Positions 2,201 to 40,689 of a stretch of 42,552 nt of DNA are shown piece by piece. Each line of letters begins with the position of its first letter. Position 1 is the first letter of the stretch. A program made the position numbers and the translations under genes. The notes beneath the pieces were generated by a model. It was not told where the DNA came from. It worked only from the letters and a program-made list of their open reading frames with translations, and did no database searches. Location: assembly GCA_016866775.1 (NCBI GenBank), contig VGLJ01000042.1, forward strand, positions 1 through 42,552, read 5' to 3'. The stretch comes from Candidatus Rokuibacteriota bacterium (GTDB taxonomy: Bacteria; Methylomirabilota; Methylomirabilia; Rokubacteriales; CSP1-6).

Positions 2201-2210
2201 CACCCTCGTC

Positions 2211-2298
2211 CGTCGTGGGGGGAGGATTCCTGAGAACCGGGTGCGGCCCGGGACCCCTCGAACCTGATCCGGGTAATGCCGGCGAAGGGAACACGGCG
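2211..2298 (+). promoter_or_regulatory. TPP riboswitch (THI element)
   Basis: The conserved THI-box segments are all present in order: a G-rich start, CTGAGA (2230-2235), ACCC, GAACCTGATCCGGGTAATGCC (about 2260-2280), and GGCGAAGGGA. The closing helix P1 is visible as CGTCGTG (2211-2217) pairing with CACGGCG (2292-2298), with one G-U pair. The class binds thiamine pyrophosphate and represses thiamine genes; here it precedes thiS-thiG-thiE-thiO, as expected. Confidence 0.95.
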
Positions 2299-2312
2299 AG
2301 ACGGAGTCGGCG

Positions 2313-17072: not shown

Positions 17073-17861
17073 ATGGGGGACACCCCCACGCCCCCGGAGC
17101 GCCACGCCGTCGAGGTGCCCGGCGGGCGCGTCTGCCTCGTTCTCCACCTCCCCGACCGCGCGCCCGCTCCGTGCGTGGTCGCGTGCCACGGACTCAGCGC
17201 TTCGAAGGACGGCGACAAGTACCTGATGCTCGGCGCCGAGCTTCCGCCCGCGGGCTACGCCCTCGCGCGCTTCGACTTCCGCGGCTGCGGTGAGTCGTCG
17301 GGCCGCGAGGACGAGACCACGATCGCGACGCGGATCGAGGACGTCGAAGCCGTGCTGAAGCTGCTCGGCCGGCACGCGGCGTTGTCCGGAGAGTTCGGTC
17401 TCCTCGGCTCGAGCCTCGGCGGCTTCGTCGCGCTCCACGTCGCCGCCGCACGCGGCGACGGGACCCCGCTCGTCACGTGGAACGCGCCGAGCAACCTCTT
17501 CGATCTCGCCAACGACGAGCGCGACGAGCGGCCCGGCATCGGCGTGCCGTTCTTCATGGAGCTGGCGACGCACCGCTACGAATCGACGCCCGTCGGTGTG
17601 CCGCGCCACCTGGTGATCCAGGGCGAGGCCGACGACGTCGTCGAGGTCGAGCACGGCGTGGTCCTGCACTCGCGCGCCGCCGAGCCGTGCGACCTGATCG
17701 TGATCCCGGGCGCCGACCACCGGCTCACGGAACCGGAGCATCGCCGCCAGGCCGTCGACGCGAGCCTCGCCTGGTTCCAGAAGTTCGTCCGCGGAGGGCC
17801 CGGATTCACTCCGGGCCCGGAGCGTGGGGGGCTTGGGGGGCGCTCGGAGCCCCCCGGATGA
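17073..17861 (+). CDS. Alpha/beta hydrolase
   Basis: A serine hydrolase of about 262 residues, of the dienelactone hydrolase/acyl-peptidase type. It shows the oxyanion-loop segment VACHGLSASKDGDKY, the nucleophile elbow LLGSSLGGF, an acidic residue in GEADDVVEVEHG and the histidine in GADHRLTEP. ATG 17073 is used; GTG 17061, two bases after the TatD stop, is possible, and neither has a ribosome site. The last 22 or so residues (from GGPGFTPGPE on) are glycine- and proline-rich and encoded by a short hairpin repeat. The natural C-terminus may therefore have been altered by the repeat. The stop overlaps the next ATG. Confidence 0.85.
   Translation: MGDTPTPPERHAVEVPGGRVCLVLHLPDRAPAPCVVACHGLSASKDGDKYLMLGAELPPAGYALARFDFRGCGESSGREDETTIATRIEDVEAVLKLLGRHAALSGEFGLLGSSLGGFVALHVAAARGDGTPLVTWNAPSNLFDLANDERDERPGIGVPFFMELATHRYESTPVGVPRHLVIQGEADDVVEVEHGVVLHSRAAEPCDLIVIPGADHRLTEPEHRRQAVDASLAWFQKFVRGGPGFTPGPERGGLGGRSEPPG
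17790..17857 (+). repeat. Hairpin repeat, copy A
   Basis: Two hairpins in tandem: GGGCCCGGA-TTCAC-TCCGGGCCC (17796-17818) and GGGGGGC-GCTCGGA-GCCCCCC (17835-17855), joined by a linker containing GGGGGGCTTGGGGGG. The same arrangement occurs at 37797-37857 in reverse orientation, with compensating changes in the first stem. It overlaps the end of the hydrolase gene. Confidence 0.75.
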
Positions 17862-21214: not shown

Positions 21215-21245
21215 GGGAATGAATCCCGGCCCTGCGCGAGTGCCG
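21212..21245 (-). repeat. Hairpin repeat, truncated copy D
   Basis: Read on the minus strand it is GGCACTCGCGCAGGGC followed by the hairpin GCCGGGA-TTCAT-TCCCGGC (21230-21212). This is the first half of the repeat seen at 37797-37857 and 17790-17857; the G-rich second half is missing. On the plus strand it replaces the end of a receiver domain immediately after VVIQKP. On the minus strand it follows the stop of the retropepsin gene. Confidence 0.7.
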
Positions 21246-33939: not shown

Positions 33940-34866
33940 CTACCGGCCGAGGAACTTGCGGACGCTGCGCGCGATGCCCGTCGCGTCCAGGCCGTGCTTG
34001 ACGTAGAGGCCCTTCGGATCGCCGGACTCGCCGAAGCCCTGCACGCCGAGGCGCTTCATCGCCGTCGGCAACGCTTCGCAGAGGGCCTCGCTGACCGCAC
34101 CGCCGAGCCCACCGGCGATCGAGTGATCCTCGACGGTCACCACGTGGCCGGTCTTGCGCGCGGACGCGAGCAGCATCTCCTCGTCGAGCGGCTTGATCGA
34201 CGCGGCGTTGATGACTTCCGCGCGGATGCCGTCGCCTTCGAGCTGCTGCGCGGCCTCGAGCGCGTTGAAGACGGTGCCGCCCGACGCGATGACCGTGACG
34301 TCGCTGCCGTCGCGCAGCCGCGCCCACTGGCCGAGCCGGAACTGATAGCCGGCGGGGGAGACCGGCTCGAGGTTCTGGCGCGTCAGCCGGAGGTAGAGCG
34401 GTCCCTGGTGCTCCGCGGCGTACGCGATGACCTGCTTGCACTCGACCTCGTCGGCCGGCTGGATGATCGGGATGTTCGGCAGCGCGCGGATGCACGCGAT
34501 GTCCTCGAGACCCATCTGGCTGTACCCGTCCTCGCCGATGGCGACGCCGACGTGGGTTCCGACGAGCTTCACGTTCGCGTTGGTGTAGGCGACCGAGATG
34601 CGAATCGTCTCGAAGCGGCCGACGAGGAAGCACGCGAAGGAGGCCGCGAAGGGGACCTTGCCCGCCATGGCGAGCCCCGCGGCCACGCCGATCATGTTCG
34701 CCTCGGCGATGCCGACGTTGAAGGCGCGGTCCGGGTACTTCTTCGCGAACGACACCGTCATCGTGGACTTCGAGAGGTCGGAGTCGAGCGTGACGATGCG
34801 CGGATCCTTCGCCCCGAGGTCGATCAGGGCCTCACCGAACGCGGCGCGCGTCGCTTTGGCGGCCAT
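33940..34866 (-). CDS. Transketolase, C-terminal subunit
   Basis: The pyrimidine-binding and C-terminal half of a split, TPP-dependent transketolase, 308 residues. It shows DSDLSKSTMT, FNVGIAEANMIGVAAGLAMAG with the conserved glutamate that activates the TPP pyrimidine, and the C-terminal VVTVEDHSIAGGLGGAVSE. ATG 34866 overlaps the upstream stop by one base (TGATG); GTG 34869 is possible. It is the last gene of the moeA-tldD2-rhodanese-tldE2-transketolase operon. Together with the N half it would move two-carbon units between sugar phosphates. Confidence 0.92.
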   Translation of the reverse strand: MAAKATRAAFGEALIDLGAKDPRIVTLDSDLSKSTMTVSFAKKYPDRAFNVGIAEANMIGVAAGLAMAGKVPFAASFACFLVGRFETIRISVAYTNANVKLVGTHVGVAIGEDGYSQMGLEDIACIRALPNIPIIQPADEVECKQVIAYAAEHQGPLYLRLTRQNLEPVSPAGYQFRLGQWARLRDGSDVTVIASGGTVFNALEAAQQLEGDGIRAEVINAASIKPLDEEMLLASARKTGHVVTVEDHSIAGGLGGAVSEALCEALPTAMKRLGVQGFGESGDPKGLYVKHGLDATGIARSVRKFLGR

Positions 34867-35780
34867 CACGTTTTCTCCAGCGCGGCCAGCTCGTCGACGA
34901 CGGCCTTGGTCGCGCTGTCACGGGTGAGGTATTCGTCCCAGGCGGCCTCCGACACGCCGAGCAGGTCGCGGATCGCGCGGATCGCCTCCTGCGGCTTCGG
35001 CGCCTTGCCGTGCCACTCGGGATTGTTCTCCATCCACGGCACGCCCTTGCCCTTCACGGTGTTCGCGACGATGAAGGACGGCTTGCCCTTCGTCGCCTCC
35101 GCCTGGTCGAGGGCCTTCCCGATCTGCGCGAAGTTGTGGCCGTCGATCTCCTGCACGGCCCAGCCGAACGCCTGCCACTTCGCGACCACGGGCTCGAGGT
35201 CGAGGATGTCGGTGACGAACCCGTCGAGCTGGATCTTGTTGTAGTCGAGGATGGCGCAGAGGTTGTCGAGCGGATGGCTCGGCTGGCCGAGCTTCGGCCC
35301 CGACATCGCCGCTTCCCACACCTGGCCTTCCTGGATCTCGCCGTCACCGAGGATGCAGTACACGCGCGCGGGCGAGCCGGCCATCTTCAGGCCGAGCGCT
35401 TCGCCGAGCGCGATCGAGAGGCCCTGGCCGAGCGAGCCCGTCGCCGCTTCGATCCCGGGCAGCGCGTTGCGATCGGGATGCCCCTGGAGCGGGCTGCCGA
35501 GCTTGCGTAGCGAGATGAGCTGCGACTCGGGGAAGAAGCCCGCGCGCGACATCGCCGCGTAGAGCGCGGGCACCGCGTGGCCTTTGGAGAGGATCACGCG
35601 GTCGCGGTCCGGCCAGTCCGGGCGCTTCGGATCGACGCGCAGCCGGCCGAAATAGAGCGCGACGAGCAGGTCGGCGACCGAGTTCGACCCGCCGGGATGG
35701 CCCGAGCCCGCGTGGGTGAGCATGCGCTCGATCTGCACGCGGCACCCGCGAGCGATGGCCTCGAGGCGTGCGATATCCAT
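34866..35780 (-). CDS. Transketolase, N-terminal subunit
   Basis: The diphosphate-binding half of the split transketolase, 304 residues. Visible are HAGSGHPGGSNSVADLL, RVILSKGHAVPALYAA, GSLGQGLSIALGEA, and the TPP motif GDGEIQEGQVWEAAM ending in LDYNKIQLDG. ATG 35780 overlaps the tldE2 stop by one base (TGATG). The gene is thus tightly coupled to the peptidase pair upstream, an unusual partnership for a sugar-phosphate enzyme. Confidence 0.93.
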   Translation of the reverse strand: MDIARLEAIARGCRVQIERMLTHAGSGHPGGSNSVADLLVALYFGRLRVDPKRPDWPDRDRVILSKGHAVPALYAAMSRAGFFPESQLISLRKLGSPLQGHPDRNALPGIEAATGSLGQGLSIALGEALGLKMAGSPARVYCILGDGEIQEGQVWEAAMSGPKLGQPSHPLDNLCAILDYNKIQLDGFVTDILDLEPVVAKWQAFGWAVQEIDGHNFAQIGKALDQAEATKGKPSFIVANTVKGKGVPWMENNPEWHGKAPKPQEAIRAIRDLLGVSEAAWDEYLTRDSATKAVVDELAALEKT

Positions 35781-37336
35781 CAGGCGAGATCCTCCATGAA
35801 CCCTGCGATCGCATCGATACGGACGCCTGAGATCGCGACCTCCGGGGTGTAGGCGACTTCCGCCCAGACCACCGTGCCGCGCACGTCCTTGGTGACGCCG
35901 ACGACGTTGTTCAGGATGGTCGCGATGTTGTCGTTGACCCGGATCACGTTCGCCCGGAGCGGCGCGGCGATCCGGCCGCCGCAAATGATATAGGAATCGC
36001 CGACGACCGTACAGGTGAAATCACCGGCGCGCAGGCCGTTGACCGGGTACGTGTACCAGATGCGGCCGATGTAGAGCCCGTTCCCGACGCGCCGGATCAG
36101 CTCGTCGCGCGTGACGCCGTCCTCTCCCTCGAGCACCACGTTCGACGCGGAGATCGAGGGGCTCGTATCGAACTGCCGCCCGCCGCCGAAGGCGAAGCGG
36201 AAGCCGTTGCGCGGCACCAGCGCGCGGCGGGCCGCCTCGTCCGGCGCCGTGCCGAGCTTCTCGGCGCGCGCGGGATCGCGCAGCAGGCGCTGGGTCTCGT
36301 ACCAGCTCGAGAGGCAACCCGTCAGCACCCCGGCGCGGATCAGGTCCGTGCGGCCGGTCGGCAGGCCCTCGCACGTGATGCCCTTGGATGCGATCCGTTC
36401 CGCCGCCGCGCCGTCGTCATAGAGGTGGAGGCCCGGTCCCGCCACGCGAGTACCGAGCCGGCCGAGGAACGGCGTGTTCGAGGCATAGAAGCTCGAGGCC
36501 GTGCACGCGGGCACGATGATGTTGTTCAGCAGATCGGCGACGGGCTGGCGGCCGAGCACGACCGTGTACGTGCCGGAGGGCACGCGGACGCCGTCGATCG
36601 CGGCGATCGCGCTCCGCGCGGCCTCGACGCCCGCCTCGTCGGTGAAGTGATCGAGCCGCGTGCCGGTGGACCACCCCGAGCCCTTCGCGTCGAACTTCTC
36701 GACCATCGCCGTGATGGACGAGGTGATGACGGTGGCTTCGTCGGTCTGCACCCGGGGCAGGTGCGTCGACACGATCGCGGCACGCTCCTGCACGACCGAG
36801 ACGTCGCCGCCGACGATGAGACCGAGGTCCCGCAATCCCGCCTCGCCGCCGGCGAGCTCGGCGAGCCGGCCCGCGTGGAGGAACGTGCGGACCGCGCCGT
36901 TCACGACCTTCCAGCCGGCCTCGACGAGCGCGCGGTCGTCGAGCGTCATCAGCGCGGGGTCGTGATGGGTCCCGAGCGTGCGCCGCTCGGGTCCGGGCTT
37001 CGGAAGCGAGACGAACTCGGGATCGCGCACGGCCGCGCGCCGCGCTTTGGTCAACGCGCGCTCGACGCCGCGCGCCGCGAGGTCGCTCGGCTCGCTACCG
37101 AAGCCGACGAGGTCGCCGTCGGGGCCGGCGAAGACCGCCTGGATCCCGATCCCGTGGGCCGTGGCCGACTTCGGCTCCTCGACGCCGTCGCACGGGATGT
37201 GGGACGTGTAGTTCAGCCGCGTGAGCAGGGCCGCGTTCGCCGCCACGAAGATCTCGACTTCGCGGACGTCCGGCTGATGCCGCGCCCACTCGAACGCCTC
37301 GGTCGCCGCGCGAGCGAGGTCGTCGATGGACATCAT
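35780..37336 (-). CDS. TldD/PmbA-family protein, second pair (TldE2-like)
   Basis: A 518-residue protein of the TldD/PmbA superfamily without an HExxxH zinc motif, so the likely non-catalytic partner of TldD2. It shows ATAHGIGIQAVFAGPDG, the segment GTYTVVLGRQPVADLLNNII, a family-like ASKGITCEGLPTGRTDLI, and NGLYIGRIWYTYPVNGLRAGDF. It is longer than the first PmbA (445 residues). ATG 37336 and ATG 37333 are adjacent. No ribosome site is seen, because repeat copy G occupies the sequence just upstream. It overlaps the transketolase start by one base. Confidence 0.85.
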   Translation of the reverse strand: MMSIDDLARAATEAFEWARHQPDVREVEIFVAANAALLTRLNYTSHIPCDGVEEPKSATAHGIGIQAVFAGPDGDLVGFGSEPSDLAARGVERALTKARRAAVRDPEFVSLPKPGPERRTLGTHHDPALMTLDDRALVEAGWKVVNGAVRTFLHAGRLAELAGGEAGLRDLGLIVGGDVSVVQERAAIVSTHLPRVQTDEATVITSSITAMVEKFDAKGSGWSTGTRLDHFTDEAGVEAARSAIAAIDGVRVPSGTYTVVLGRQPVADLLNNIIVPACTASSFYASNTPFLGRLGTRVAGPGLHLYDDGAAAERIASKGITCEGLPTGRTDLIRAGVLTGCLSSWYETQRLLRDPARAEKLGTAPDEAARRALVPRNGFRFAFGGGRQFDTSPSISASNVVLEGEDGVTRDELIRRVGNGLYIGRIWYTYPVNGLRAGDFTCTVVGDSYIICGGRIAAPLRANVIRVNDNIATILNNVVGVTKDVRGTVVWAEVAYTPEVAISGVRIDAIAGFMEDLA

Positions 37337-37340
37337 GTCA

Positions 37341-37379
37341 AGGGGTTCGGGGTCCCTCGGTTGTGGTGTCCCATGTTCA
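37341..37379 (+). repeat. 39-base repeat, copy G
   Basis: From AGGGGTTCGGGGTCC to CCCATGTTCA on the plus strand, it matches 33 of 39 positions of copy F inside the SDR gene. It fills the whole gap between the rhodanese and tldE2 genes. Its last three bases (TCA) are the complement of the rhodanese stop codon. Confidence 0.65.
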
Positions 37380-37868
37380 ATGCCCGGGCGTGGCCTTCGG
37401 ATTTCGGCCTTCGACGGGGTAGCCCTTCTCCCACCAGCCGGGGAGCCCTTCGTCGAGCACCTCGTGATTGCGCCAGCCCTTCGCGTAGAGGAGGTCGCTG
37501 GCCCCCCGGGCCAGCGCGTGCGGGCACGTTCAGTAGAGGACGACGCGGGTCTGCTTCGGCACTTCCTTCGGTGCGCGCGCATCCACCTCGCGCAAGGGAA
37601 GGCTCTTCGCGCCCTTGATGTGGAGCTCGCGGTACGCCTCGGCCGTGCGGACGTCGAAGATCGCGACCTTCGCGCCGCCGTCGACCTGGGCCTTGAGCGT
37701 GTCCACCTTGATGAACTTCACGGGGTAGCTCGGTGGCGCGGCTGGCTGCGCGGCGCCGAGGAGGAGCGCGATCGCAAGGATGGGGGATGCGAGACGCCCC
37801 CCCCAAGCCCCCCGCCGCTCCGGGCGCGGAATGAATCCGCGCCCTCCGCGAGTGCCGAAGGGCTTCAT
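37377..37868 (-). CDS. Putative selenocysteine-containing rhodanese (UGA at 37532-37530)
   Basis: A 163-residue exported rhodanese-type sulfurtransferase if the in-frame TGA at codon 113 is read as selenocysteine. Residues about 22-45 (RLASPILAIALLLGAAQPAAPP) form a signal peptide whose N-region is encoded by a repeat. The rhodanese domain runs from VKFIKVDTLKAQV through VAIFDVRTAEAYRELHIKGA to RVVLY. After the TGA the same frame gives TCPHALARGASDLLYAKGW, EVLDEGLPGWWEKGYPVEG and then a stop. The TGA sits where this fold has its catalytic cysteine. A hairpin suited to be a SECIS follows. ATG 37868 overlaps the tldD2 stop (ATGA). The alternatives are a Cys-to-stop mutation or a sequence error. 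Read conventionally, only 112 residues without an active site would be made. Confidence 0.75.
37496..37532 (-). promoter_or_regulatory. Candidate bacterial SECIS element
   Basis: On the minus strand, 22 bases after the TGA comes a GGG loop (37507-37505) closed by a perfect 9-bp stem, CGCTGGCCC (37516-37508) with GGGCCAGCG (37504-37496). Bacterial SECIS hairpins lie just downstream of the UGA, with the loop about 16-37 bases away and a G in the first loop positions; both hold. The hairpin lies within coding sequence, so part of its pairing could reflect the GC-rich codons. Confidence 0.6.
37797..37857 (-). repeat. Hairpin repeat, complete copy B
   Basis: Read on the minus strand: GGCACTCGCGGAGG, then hairpin GGGCGCGGA-TTCAT-TCCGCGCCC (37844-37822), GGAGCGGC, and GGGGGGCTTGGGGGGGG. 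Compared with copy A the first stem has exchanged G-C for C-G on both arms while the loop TTCAY is kept. It starts nine bases after the tldD2 stop, and is translated as the first residues of the rhodanese. Confidence 0.75.
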
Positions 37869-39421
37869 GAGCCGAATATCCGCGCGCGGCTGCGCATCGT
37901 CGGACCGCCGTTGCCGAGCTTCTTCGTCTGCATCGGCTGGCCCTTGCCGCAGTTGGAGATGGGATAGAGGCGAAAGTCGGCGCCGACCGCGTCGACGTTC
38001 ATCAGGTAGTCGCGCGTGTCGGCGGCGATGCCGCCGTCGCGATACAGGCGGCCGAGCTGGCCGTCGACGATCTCGTACACCTTCCGCGCGGAGATCCGGA
38101 AGTTCTCGCGGCTCTCCGCGATCGAGGGCGTGCGGTGGCCGACCACGTAGTAGCCGTGGTCGACCTCGCGGATCATCGCGTCGGGATCCCGGTCGCCCTC
38201 CGCGAACACCGTGCTCGACATGCGGATCAGCGGGACGAGCGACGGGTCGGTCGCCTTCCAGTGCCCGTTCGGCGCGCCGCCGAAGACCGCCGCGGTCTGC
38301 CGGCTGTTCATGAATCCCTGGAGCACGCCGCGATCGATGTGGACCACGCGTCGCGCGGGCGTGCCCTCGTGGTCGTAGGCGTAGTGGCCGTACCCCGGCA
38401 GCGCGGGATCGGAGAACGCGGTGACCAGCGGCGAGGCGATCTGCTTGCCGACCTGGTGCTCGCCGAGGCCGCGCAAGAGCCACGAGCGTCCGGCGTACGC
38501 CGTCTCCATCTTCAGCGCGCGGTCGAGCTCGACCGGATGGCCGATGATCTCGTGCGAGACGAGCGTGTTGTAGTGCGGATCCGTCACGACGACGACCTCG
38601 CCGTCGGACGTCGGCAGCGTGGGCGCGGCGGCGACCTCGACGGCTTCGCGCCCGATCGCGCGCGCGAACTCGACGAACGTCGGGAAGCGGATGAGCGGCT
38701 CGTCGGCCCCGCGCGTGAGGATCTCCCACCCGCGCTGGTGACCGAGCACGTCGTAGATCTCGTGGCTCACGCCGTCGACGACCGCGACGACCCACACCAT
38801 GCCCTGGGTGAGGGCGAAGGTCTGGTCGATGCGCGCGCCCTCGGTCGACACGAACAGCTCGCGCGAGAGCTGCGTGAGCGTGGAGACGAAGTTGTACTTG
38901 AGCCGCGCGTCGAGCCCCGCGAGGTCTCGCGAGACGTCGGTCGTCTCGACGACCATGGCCGGCAGCGCCATCGCGCGCGGATCGACCTCGCACAGGGCGG
39001 GGATGGTGTCGCGCCGGATCTCCACGGGATGCAGGCGCGTGTCCGCGAGCGTCTCGCCGAGCGGGCCCAGCTTGCCGCGCGCGTCCGCCTTCATCTCCGC
39101 GTTGACGTCTGCGCGGCGCCAGGCCTGTTCGATCGCCTCGCGCACGATCCGTGGCAGATCGTCGGCGTCGGCCGCGCCGAGCGTGAGGCCGACGTACCCC
39201 GGGGCGATCGAGCGGTCACCAGCGAGCACCCGAACGCCGAGGCCGAGCCCGTAGTCGTCGCCCGACGACTTCGCGGCGCCGTTCTCGGCGGTGGCGTACT
39301 TGCCCTGCGTGACTTCCAGGCGCACGTCGGCGTGCGTGAGATGCGGCAGCCGGCGCTTCGCGTCGTGGACCAGCTCCTCGACGCTGGGCGCGACGCGGTC
39401 GATCAGCTCGACGCCGATCAT
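37865..39421 (-). CDS. TldD-family zinc metallopeptidase, second pair (TldD2)
   Basis: A 518-residue catalytic member of the TldD family. The zinc motif SHEIIGHPVELDRALKME has H290, E291 and H295. Around it are VVVVTDPHYNTLV, the segment PGYGHYAYDHEGTPARRVV, and the C-terminal YPISNCGKGQPMQ with a conserved cysteine. ATG 39421 overlaps the moeA stop by one base (TGATG). It is about 40 residues longer than the first TldD and clearly a separate paralogue. With TldE2 downstream it probably forms a heterodimer, and the rhodanese gene is inserted between the two. Confidence 0.9.
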   Translation of the reverse strand: MIGVELIDRVAPSVEELVHDAKRRLPHLTHADVRLEVTQGKYATAENGAAKSSGDDYGLGLGVRVLAGDRSIAPGYVGLTLGAADADDLPRIVREAIEQAWRRADVNAEMKADARGKLGPLGETLADTRLHPVEIRRDTIPALCEVDPRAMALPAMVVETTDVSRDLAGLDARLKYNFVSTLTQLSRELFVSTEGARIDQTFALTQGMVWVVAVVDGVSHEIYDVLGHQRGWEILTRGADEPLIRFPTFVEFARAIGREAVEVAAAPTLPTSDGEVVVVTDPHYNTLVSHEIIGHPVELDRALKMETAYAGRSWLLRGLGEHQVGKQIASPLVTAFSDPALPGYGHYAYDHEGTPARRVVHIDRGVLQGFMNSRQTAAVFGGAPNGHWKATDPSLVPLIRMSSTVFAEGDRDPDAMIREVDHGYYVVGHRTPSIAESRENFRISARKVYEIVDGQLGRLYRDGGIAADTRDYLMNVDAVGADFRLYPISNCGKGQPMQTKKLGNGGPTMRSRARIFGS

Positions 39422-40620
39422 CAGAAGGGCTCGACCTCGACCAGCTCGCCCGGCTCGACGTCGCCGCGCTCCTCGTCGAGCACGACGAGACAGTTGCCGA
39501 CGACCATCGAGCTCAGGATGCCGGAGCCCTGCGGGCCGGTGGTCCGCACGTGCCACGTCCTGTCCGCCGCGGCGTAGCTGAGGATGCCGCGCTTGAACTC
39601 GCGCCGGCCGGTCTTCTTGCGCATCGGTTCGTCGGCGCGCGCGTGGAACGTCGCGGGGAAGAGCCGCGTGCGGCCCGCGAGCTTGTAGATGGCGGGCCGG
39701 ACGAACAGCATGAACGCCAGCATCGAGGCGACCGGGTTGCCGGGAAGGCCGAAGAAGTGCGCAGGGCCGATCGATCCCATCGCGAGCGGCCGGCCGGGCT
39801 GCATGGCCACCTGCCAGAACTCGATGCCGCCGATCTCCTCGAGCACGTCCTTCACGAGGTCGTAGATGCCGACCGACACGCCCCCGGAGCTCACGACCAC
39901 GTCGGCCATCGACGCCGCGTCGAGCAATCGTGCGCGCAGCTCCTCGCGCCGGTCGGGCACGATGCCGAGGTCGATCACCTGGCCGCCGCAGCGCGCGATG
40001 CTGCCGCGCAGCGCGAAGCGGTTGGAGTCGTAGATCTGCCCTGGCTTGCGCACCGAGCCCGGCTCCGCGACTTCGTCACCCGTCGAGAGCAGCGCCACGC
40101 GCGGCCGCGAGTGCACGAGCGCCTGCACGAACCCGAGCGAGGTGAGCAGCCCGATCTCCTGCGGCCGGAGCGGCGAGCCTTTCGCCACGACCACGGTGCC
40201 GCTCGCGATGTCTTCGCCGTGCCGCCGCACGTTCGCGCCCTTGTCGAGTGGACCGATGCGGACCCGGTCGCCCTCGCGCTCGACGATCTCCTGCGGGTAC
40301 ACGGTGTCGGCGCCCGCGGGCATCGGCGCGCCGGTCATGATGCGGATCGACTGGCCGGCGGCGAGCGTTCCGTCGTGCACGGAGCCGGCGGGCAGGTCGG
40401 CGATGACGGTCAGCTCGCGCGTGCCTTCACGGGGAATGTCGCCGCTGCCGACGGCGTAGCCGTCCACGGCCGAGTTGTCGCTGGGCGGAACGTCGAAGGG
40501 GGCGGGGACGTCTTCGGCGAGCACGCGATCGAGCGCGTCGACGACGGCGACGAGCTCGGGCGGCGCGATGTTCGTGACCCGGTCGAGGATCCGATTTTGG
40601 CCGTCCCGGACCGAAATCAT
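39421..40620 (-). CDS. moeA: MoeA, molybdopterin molybdenumtransferase
   Basis: Inserts molybdate into adenylated molybdopterin in cofactor synthesis. The 399-residue protein has DVPPSDNSAVDGYAV, IMTGAPMPAGADTV, the LLSTGDEVAEPG motif, VVVSSGGVSVGIYDLV and GLPGNPVASML, all typical of MoeA. ATG 40620 lies seven bases after a TACTAT element. It leads the six-gene minus-strand operon that continues with tldD2. The last domain is slightly divergent. Paralogues often serve tungsten instead, which cannot be decided here. Confidence 0.93.
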   Translation of the reverse strand: MISVRDGQNRILDRVTNIAPPELVAVVDALDRVLAEDVPAPFDVPPSDNSAVDGYAVGSGDIPREGTRELTVIADLPAGSVHDGTLAAGQSIRIMTGAPMPAGADTVYPQEIVEREGDRVRIGPLDKGANVRRHGEDIASGTVVVAKGSPLRPQEIGLLTSLGFVQALVHSRPRVALLSTGDEVAEPGSVRKPGQIYDSNRFALRGSIARCGGQVIDLGIVPDRREELRARLLDAASMADVVVSSGGVSVGIYDLVKDVLEEIGGIEFWQVAMQPGRPLAMGSIGPAHFFGLPGNPVASMLAFMLFVRPAIYKLAGRTRLFPATFHARADEPMRKKTGRREFKRGILSYAAADRTWHVRTTGPQGSGILSSMVVGNCLVVLDEERGDVEPGELVEVEPF

Positions 40621-40627
40621 GCTGGGA

Positions 40628-40633
40628 ATAGTA
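40628..40633 (-). promoter_or_regulatory. -10 element of the moeA operon
   Basis: TACTAT on the minus strand (40633-40628) lies seven bases before ATG 40620. There is no ribosome site, so the mRNA would be leaderless. The -35 region (GTGCCG at 17 bases) is weak. Confidence 0.45.
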
Positions 40634-40689
40634 TCGCACGGAGAACTCGCCGGCACGTCGCGTGAGCCCTGCTCGCGGGCGCGGATGCG

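Follow-up and report, generated by a model that had tools for sequence, protein, structure and literature searches.

A probable selenocysteine-containing rhodanese with a UxCPH motif in Candidatus Rokubacteria

An in-frame UGA in a rhodanese gene

A stretch of 42,552 nucleotides from a metagenome assembly of 5.13 Mb (completeness 97.5%), referred to here in its whole length as the window, carries on its minus strand a rhodanese reading frame that is interrupted by a TGA, raising the question of whether this codon ends the protein or is read as selenocysteine (Sec). Named relatives place the host group in Candidatus Rokubacteria, an uncultured lineage of soil and groundwater. The original prediction proposed a probable selenoprotein with UGA at the catalytic position and a perfect 9-bp hairpin behind it, and named, among the things to look for, homologs with Cys or Sec at this codon, a bacterial SECIS (bSECIS) element, and the genes selA, selB, selC (tRNA-Sec) and selD in the same genome.

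When the TGA at 37532-37530 is read as Sec, the minus-strand rhodanese frame that had been described proves to be a single one of 163 residues, with the gene running from an ATG at 37868 to a stop TGA at 37379-37377 (37868-37377, minus). The inner TGA (37530..37532, minus) is codon 113 and lies in the motif Y-U-T-C-P-H-A-L. The Pfam Rhodanese domain (PF00581) scores 48.2 bits against a cut-off of 22.2 over residues 56-147 and spans both sides of this codon. An AlphaFold model built from the ortholog alignment is a confident rhodanese (pLDDT 95), its best PDB matches in Foldseek are rhodaneses with a TM of about 0.8, and model residue U67 follows directly after strand E62-66. In the structure alignment, Sec is matched to the Cys of YC in known rhodanese structures, 6mxv and 3nhv among them, which, together with the Cys found at the same codon in a homolog described below, supports the proposed location of the UGA at the catalytic Cys position of a rhodanese. 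We infer from the model that the protein would fold as a single-domain rhodanese.

The hydrophobic segment RLASPILAIALLLGAAQPAA (37737..37796, minus), judged by eye to be a signal peptide or export segment, corresponds to the N-terminus of the orthologs, which, when their N-termini are compared by eye, share a hydrophobic start followed by GAAPAAPP ahead of the rhodanese domain. This hydrophobic N-terminus, as read by eye, is consistent with putative export of the Sec-rhodanese through an N-terminal signal. The frame had been described as starting with a signal peptide; the segment is present, but it is preceded by about 26 residues after the start codon that derive from a dispersed repeat inserted in frame and that are absent from the orthologs.

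Conservation of the UGA codon in orthologs and distant homologs

Orthologs were surveyed in 95 genomes of the class, all of the sequences being metagenome-assembled genomes (MAGs), and were found in 38 other genomes of the same taxonomic family at 47-68% identity. With the window gene included, the Sec codon is TGA in 39/39 family genes, which represent roughly 20 genera, and is TAA, TAG, TGC or TGT in none of these 39. The motif of the orthologs is Y-U-[TAGS]-C-P-H-A-L. In the 37-member ortholog alignment, 25 columns are invariant and more than half of them lie at or after Sec; residue 115 (37524..37526, minus), the Cys at the second site of UxC and a possible resolving cysteine, is invariant in the alignment and is Cys in all 39 orthologs. 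A single stop in an otherwise intact MAG frame is often just a nonsense mutation or a sequencing error in a pseudogene, but this reading, which the original prediction had already thought hard to expect of a random mutation, is refuted here and keeps a negligible probability, given that 39 of 39 independently assembled genomes have UGA at this very codon, that the downstream protein is conserved and that the genome has the Sec machinery.

In a scan of the contigs of named genomes, the single window protein as query found no relative, and an alignment-based query found 31. The scan of named genomes showed UGA at the same codon in two MAGs outside the family, labelled Proteobacteria and Deltaproteobacteria, and TGC in a third labelled Melainabacteria (L124). 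The UxC arrangement is present in 41/41 UGA genes of the clade (39 in the family and 2 outside). A full selA was found in the Deltaproteobacteria MAG and a fragment ended by the contig edge in the Proteobacteria MAG; the Melainabacteria MAG with the Cys form gave no selA match, an absence that counts for little where a MAG is incomplete. In these outside homologs, whose MAG labels may be wrong, the Cys or Sec form pairs with selA as would be expected of a selenoprotein. No relative was found in the viral contigs searched.

A conserved hairpin downstream of the UGA

A perfect hairpin with a 9-bp stem (CGCUGGCCC/GGGCCAGCG) and a GGG loop at 37507-37505 lies at 37496..37516 (minus), 22 nt from the UGA, a geometry exactly as originally claimed, and the 45-nt stretch that holds it folds with -22.5 kcal/mol. 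Under the published bSECIS rules (PMC13188914), applied with one internal mismatch allowed, the window hairpin passes (loop GGG, 9 bp, 22 nt, -19.2 kcal/mol), as do 35 of the 40 Sec genes, with the remaining five just short at -6.7 to -7.4 kcal/mol. The spacing from the UGA to a loop with G as its first base is 22 nt in nearly all Sec genes. The Cys homolog L124 has no such hairpin (-1.0 kcal/mol) and fails the same rules. The hairpin is conserved and, as sought, agrees with the bSECIS rules.

Of 1000 sequences that recode the same residues synonymously, about 999 fold less strongly than the window hairpin (z -3.2), and its excess over dinucleotide shuffles is modest (z -1.85). When the orthologs were compared with their own synonymous recodings, the effect was weak for many (mean z -1.26), so that the SECIS rules and the constraint on synonymous sites were given more weight. 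Across hairpin codons +6 to +11, six in all, synonymous diversity is 0.15 of expectation, compared to 0.85 in the other columns, and is the lowest among 89 six-column windows (Mann-Whitney p 0.0005). Codon choice at these positions is correspondingly narrow: Leu is CTG in 39/39 genes, Gly is GGG in 37/37 although GGC is the usual codon, Arg is CGG or CGT only, and Ser is AGC only.

In about half of the genes, a codon at mid-stem is TCC (Ser) rather than GCC (Ala), which gives a U.C mismatch there. Covariation in the hairpin is sparse and limited to few cells, with the loop-closing C-G pair changed to A-U in both outside Sec genes. RNAalifold, run on the whole set, did not recover the hairpin as a consensus structure, a result that we judged uninformative because of the U.C mismatch in half of the stems and the very G+C-rich coding sequence. 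Given the sparse covariation and this RNAalifold result, the case for a SECIS element is built on geometry and synonymous constraint.

Selenocysteine machinery and decoding of the UGA

A single contig of the host genome carries selB (380.8 bits), selA (592.3 bits) and tRNA-Sec (70 bits) near one another, and the genome also has selD (335.5 bits; L027, G000:C31:24695-25639), so that every component named in the original prediction is present in the same genome. The selD gene has a single internal TGA, and its product is probably itself a selenoprotein, a Sec-containing selenophosphate synthetase. Across the class, selA was found in 83 of 95 genomes, and its co-occurrence with the rhodanese is uninformative there because it is nearly universal.

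As the residue inserted at the UGA is deduced by sequence comparison, the codon might conceivably be read through as something other than Sec, either by near-cognate suppression (with Trp, for example) or by a general reassignment of UGA. This is very unlikely: the column is that of the catalytic Cys, which is Cys in L124 and in paralogs, most of the same genes end in TGA as an ordinary stop, and the conserved SECIS-like hairpin occurs together with selA, selB, selC and selD. Because the UGA is kept while the protein on both sides of it is under selection, and because the hairpin 22 nt downstream is conserved, the window gene is almost certainly a true selenoprotein gene in which UGA 113 is recoded as selenocysteine, and the proposal of a probable selenoprotein gains strong computational support from UGA conservation, the hairpin and the sel genes, all of the computational checks it called for being in agreement with it. 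From what is established for Sec insertion in bacteria, SelB carrying Sec-tRNA would bind the hairpin at the ribosome and insert Sec at the UGA, and the final stop codon, which has no hairpin, would terminate translation.

The recurrence of the same UGA and decoding hairpin in about 40 related genomes indicates that the Sec-rhodanese is a real selenoprotein subfamily, and it would then be a trait conserved in a large uncultured lineage. In deposited annotations, these genes are likely given as truncated proteins or left out.

Relation to known rhodaneses

Paralogs in the class are of a Cys type (YCACP), a double-Sec type (YUTUP) and a CxU type (YCTUP). In a maximum-likelihood tree, the UxC genes and the outside homologs fall into a single clade (99/98) that excludes the CxC, UxU and CxU genes, and the CxU and UxU rhodaneses group together (98/96); the exact placement of the outside rows is unsure because of the long branches of L124, L096 and L091. 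Two sequences from another family of the class (L093 and L094) have two in-frame TGAs, one at each active-site position, the motif YUTUP and a different strong hairpin downstream, and represent a double-Sec rhodanese. One genome (G051) has a CxU rhodanese (L096, YCTUP) as well as the UxC form.

Five rhodanese selenoprotein forms have been catalogued (UxxS, UxxG, CxU, UxxG and UxxxxU), and UxCP is not among them (PMC13188914). The nearest is form 3, rhodanese_LYCAU (NF041203, CxU), which is also a single rhodanese domain with a C/U pair one residue apart after the same strand. Within NCBIfam it matches the window protein best, and all 37 aligned members match it; the window protein reaches 50 bits, below the curated cut-off of 115. 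Sec occupies the second site in that form (CxU) and the catalytic first site here (UxC), and the CxU gene found in the class belongs to a clade separate from that of the UxC genes. Forms 1, 2 and 4 (WP_010941598, UxxS; MBM9537886, UxxG; MCY3690685, UxxG) share a rhodanese domain and a predicted Sec opening the motif, and the comparison by listed motif sets them apart, the motif here being UxCP, in which position +2 is an invariant Cys and position +3 a Pro. Form 5, the TsoB rhodanese/DsbD fusion (UxxxxU, NF045694), also has a rhodanese domain with predicted Sec, but its fusion profile covers 572 positions with two Sec and is matched here at 18-20 bits, its cut-off being 805. The single-domain thiosulfate sulfurtransferases PspE and GlpE have the same fold, PspE also being a small single-domain protein, and the window protein scores far below the curated cut-offs of their profiles. 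PspE and GlpE are cysteine enzymes.

No fitting model for the Sec-rhodanese was found in NCBIfam release 20. In the open literature covered on selenoproteins of Rokubacteria or Methylomirabilota, no description of the family was found. A 2026 report, as cited in PMC13188914, counts 63 selenoprotein genes in a MAG of Methylomirabilota, and the UxC family may possibly have been seen there already. The original claim of novelty stands at the level of the subfamily, for the UxCPH motif and the tldD/tldE context described below, and not for rhodanese selenoproteins as such, others of which are known (PMC13188914). From these sequence comparisons, the U-x-C-P-H clade appears to be an uncatalogued rhodanese selenoprotein subfamily, distinct from the CxU (LYCAU) forms.

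Gene neighbourhood and possible function

Directly upstream of the rhodanese lies a gene for a tldD-like metalloprotease with an HEIIGH motif (37865..39421, minus), whose TGA stop overlaps the rhodanese ATG and whose start was placed at an internal ATG overlapping the stop of the next gene upstream, moeA (39421..40656, minus). A tldE/pmbA-like gene (35780..37336, minus) follows directly downstream. Among Rokubacteria loci in the scan of named genomes, tldD and/or tldE flank the rhodanese in 26 of 28, with both genes in 25; in the one other tld-flanked locus, the sequence starts with the rhodanese and only tldE is seen. The two loci without tld matches have rhodanese sequences identical to each other. 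Near the outside homologs (L124-L126), the neighbours included no tld genes and no common partner. Linkage with the tldD/tldE-like pair suggests a possible shared role of the Sec-rhodanese and the Tld proteins, and the near-constant order tldD-rhodanese-tldE offers a testable lead on function. Downstream of tldE, transketolase is present as separate N- and C-terminal genes (33940-35984, minus), and a TPP riboswitch (RF00059, 62.8 bits) lies elsewhere in the window at 2208-2308 (plus).

The protein would be exported via its N-terminal signal and adopt a single-domain rhodanese fold with Sec as the nucleophile, and Sec would then either carry sulfane sulfur as an Se-S persulfide or bond reversibly (Se-S) to the Cys at +2. 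Such a bond, or a relay of persulfide from one UxC residue to the other, is chemically plausible because the second Cys is invariant, and we give this proposed mechanism about an even chance. A rival account, with odds only a little short of even, makes the selenoprotein an envelope thiol/selenol oxidoreductase working through a U-S-C selenenylsulfide and not a sulfur transferase. The second Cys of UxC, invariant in all orthologs, agrees with this account, as do the paralogs, which show CxC, UxC, CxU and UxU at the same two sites; the occurrence of all four combinations suggests that the two active-site residues work as a pair. Uncharacterised selenoproteins are, moreover, mostly thought to be redox proteins (PMC13188914). 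The fold, however, is that of a classical rhodanese, no redox partner gene is linked, and a CxC pair is able to pass a persulfide too. The four Cys/Sec combinations at neighbouring active-site positions among the rhodaneses of the class provide a natural series in which to ask how selenium benefits sulfur chemistry. A bolder and rather doubtful proposal is a Rokubacteria-wide envelope selenoenzyme, built on a rhodanese scaffold, in which a catalytic selenenylsulfide or persulfide relay of Sec and the +2 Cys acts with the TldD/TldE-like protease pair in an undescribed pathway; if true, such a pathway might, for example, mature an exported peptide or cofactor.

A dispersed repeat in the N-terminal coding region

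The inserted residues near the start of the rhodanese correspond to a copy of a dispersed structured repeat of about 78 bp (37780..37860, minus), which lies in frame between the start codon and the signal peptide and contains a covarying hairpin. Further copies occur in the window at 17790-17854 (plus) and 21216-21245 (minus), and the genome holds at least 40 copies (40 of 195 candidates scored). No Rfam family matched the repeat in the window at the gathering threshold. The consensus reads CGC-GGA-GGGCSSGG-ATTCAYT-CCSSGCCC-GGA-GCG, then GGGGGGCTTGGGGGGTGCGYCTCGCACCCCCC, and the copies form two hairpins. The first stem covaries strongly between copies: 17 cells show two-sided changes at two of its pairs, and 99% of cells are paired; the second stem varies, by eye, in a paired manner. 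On this sequence evidence, the repeat is a candidate REP/MITE-like element or structured RNA.
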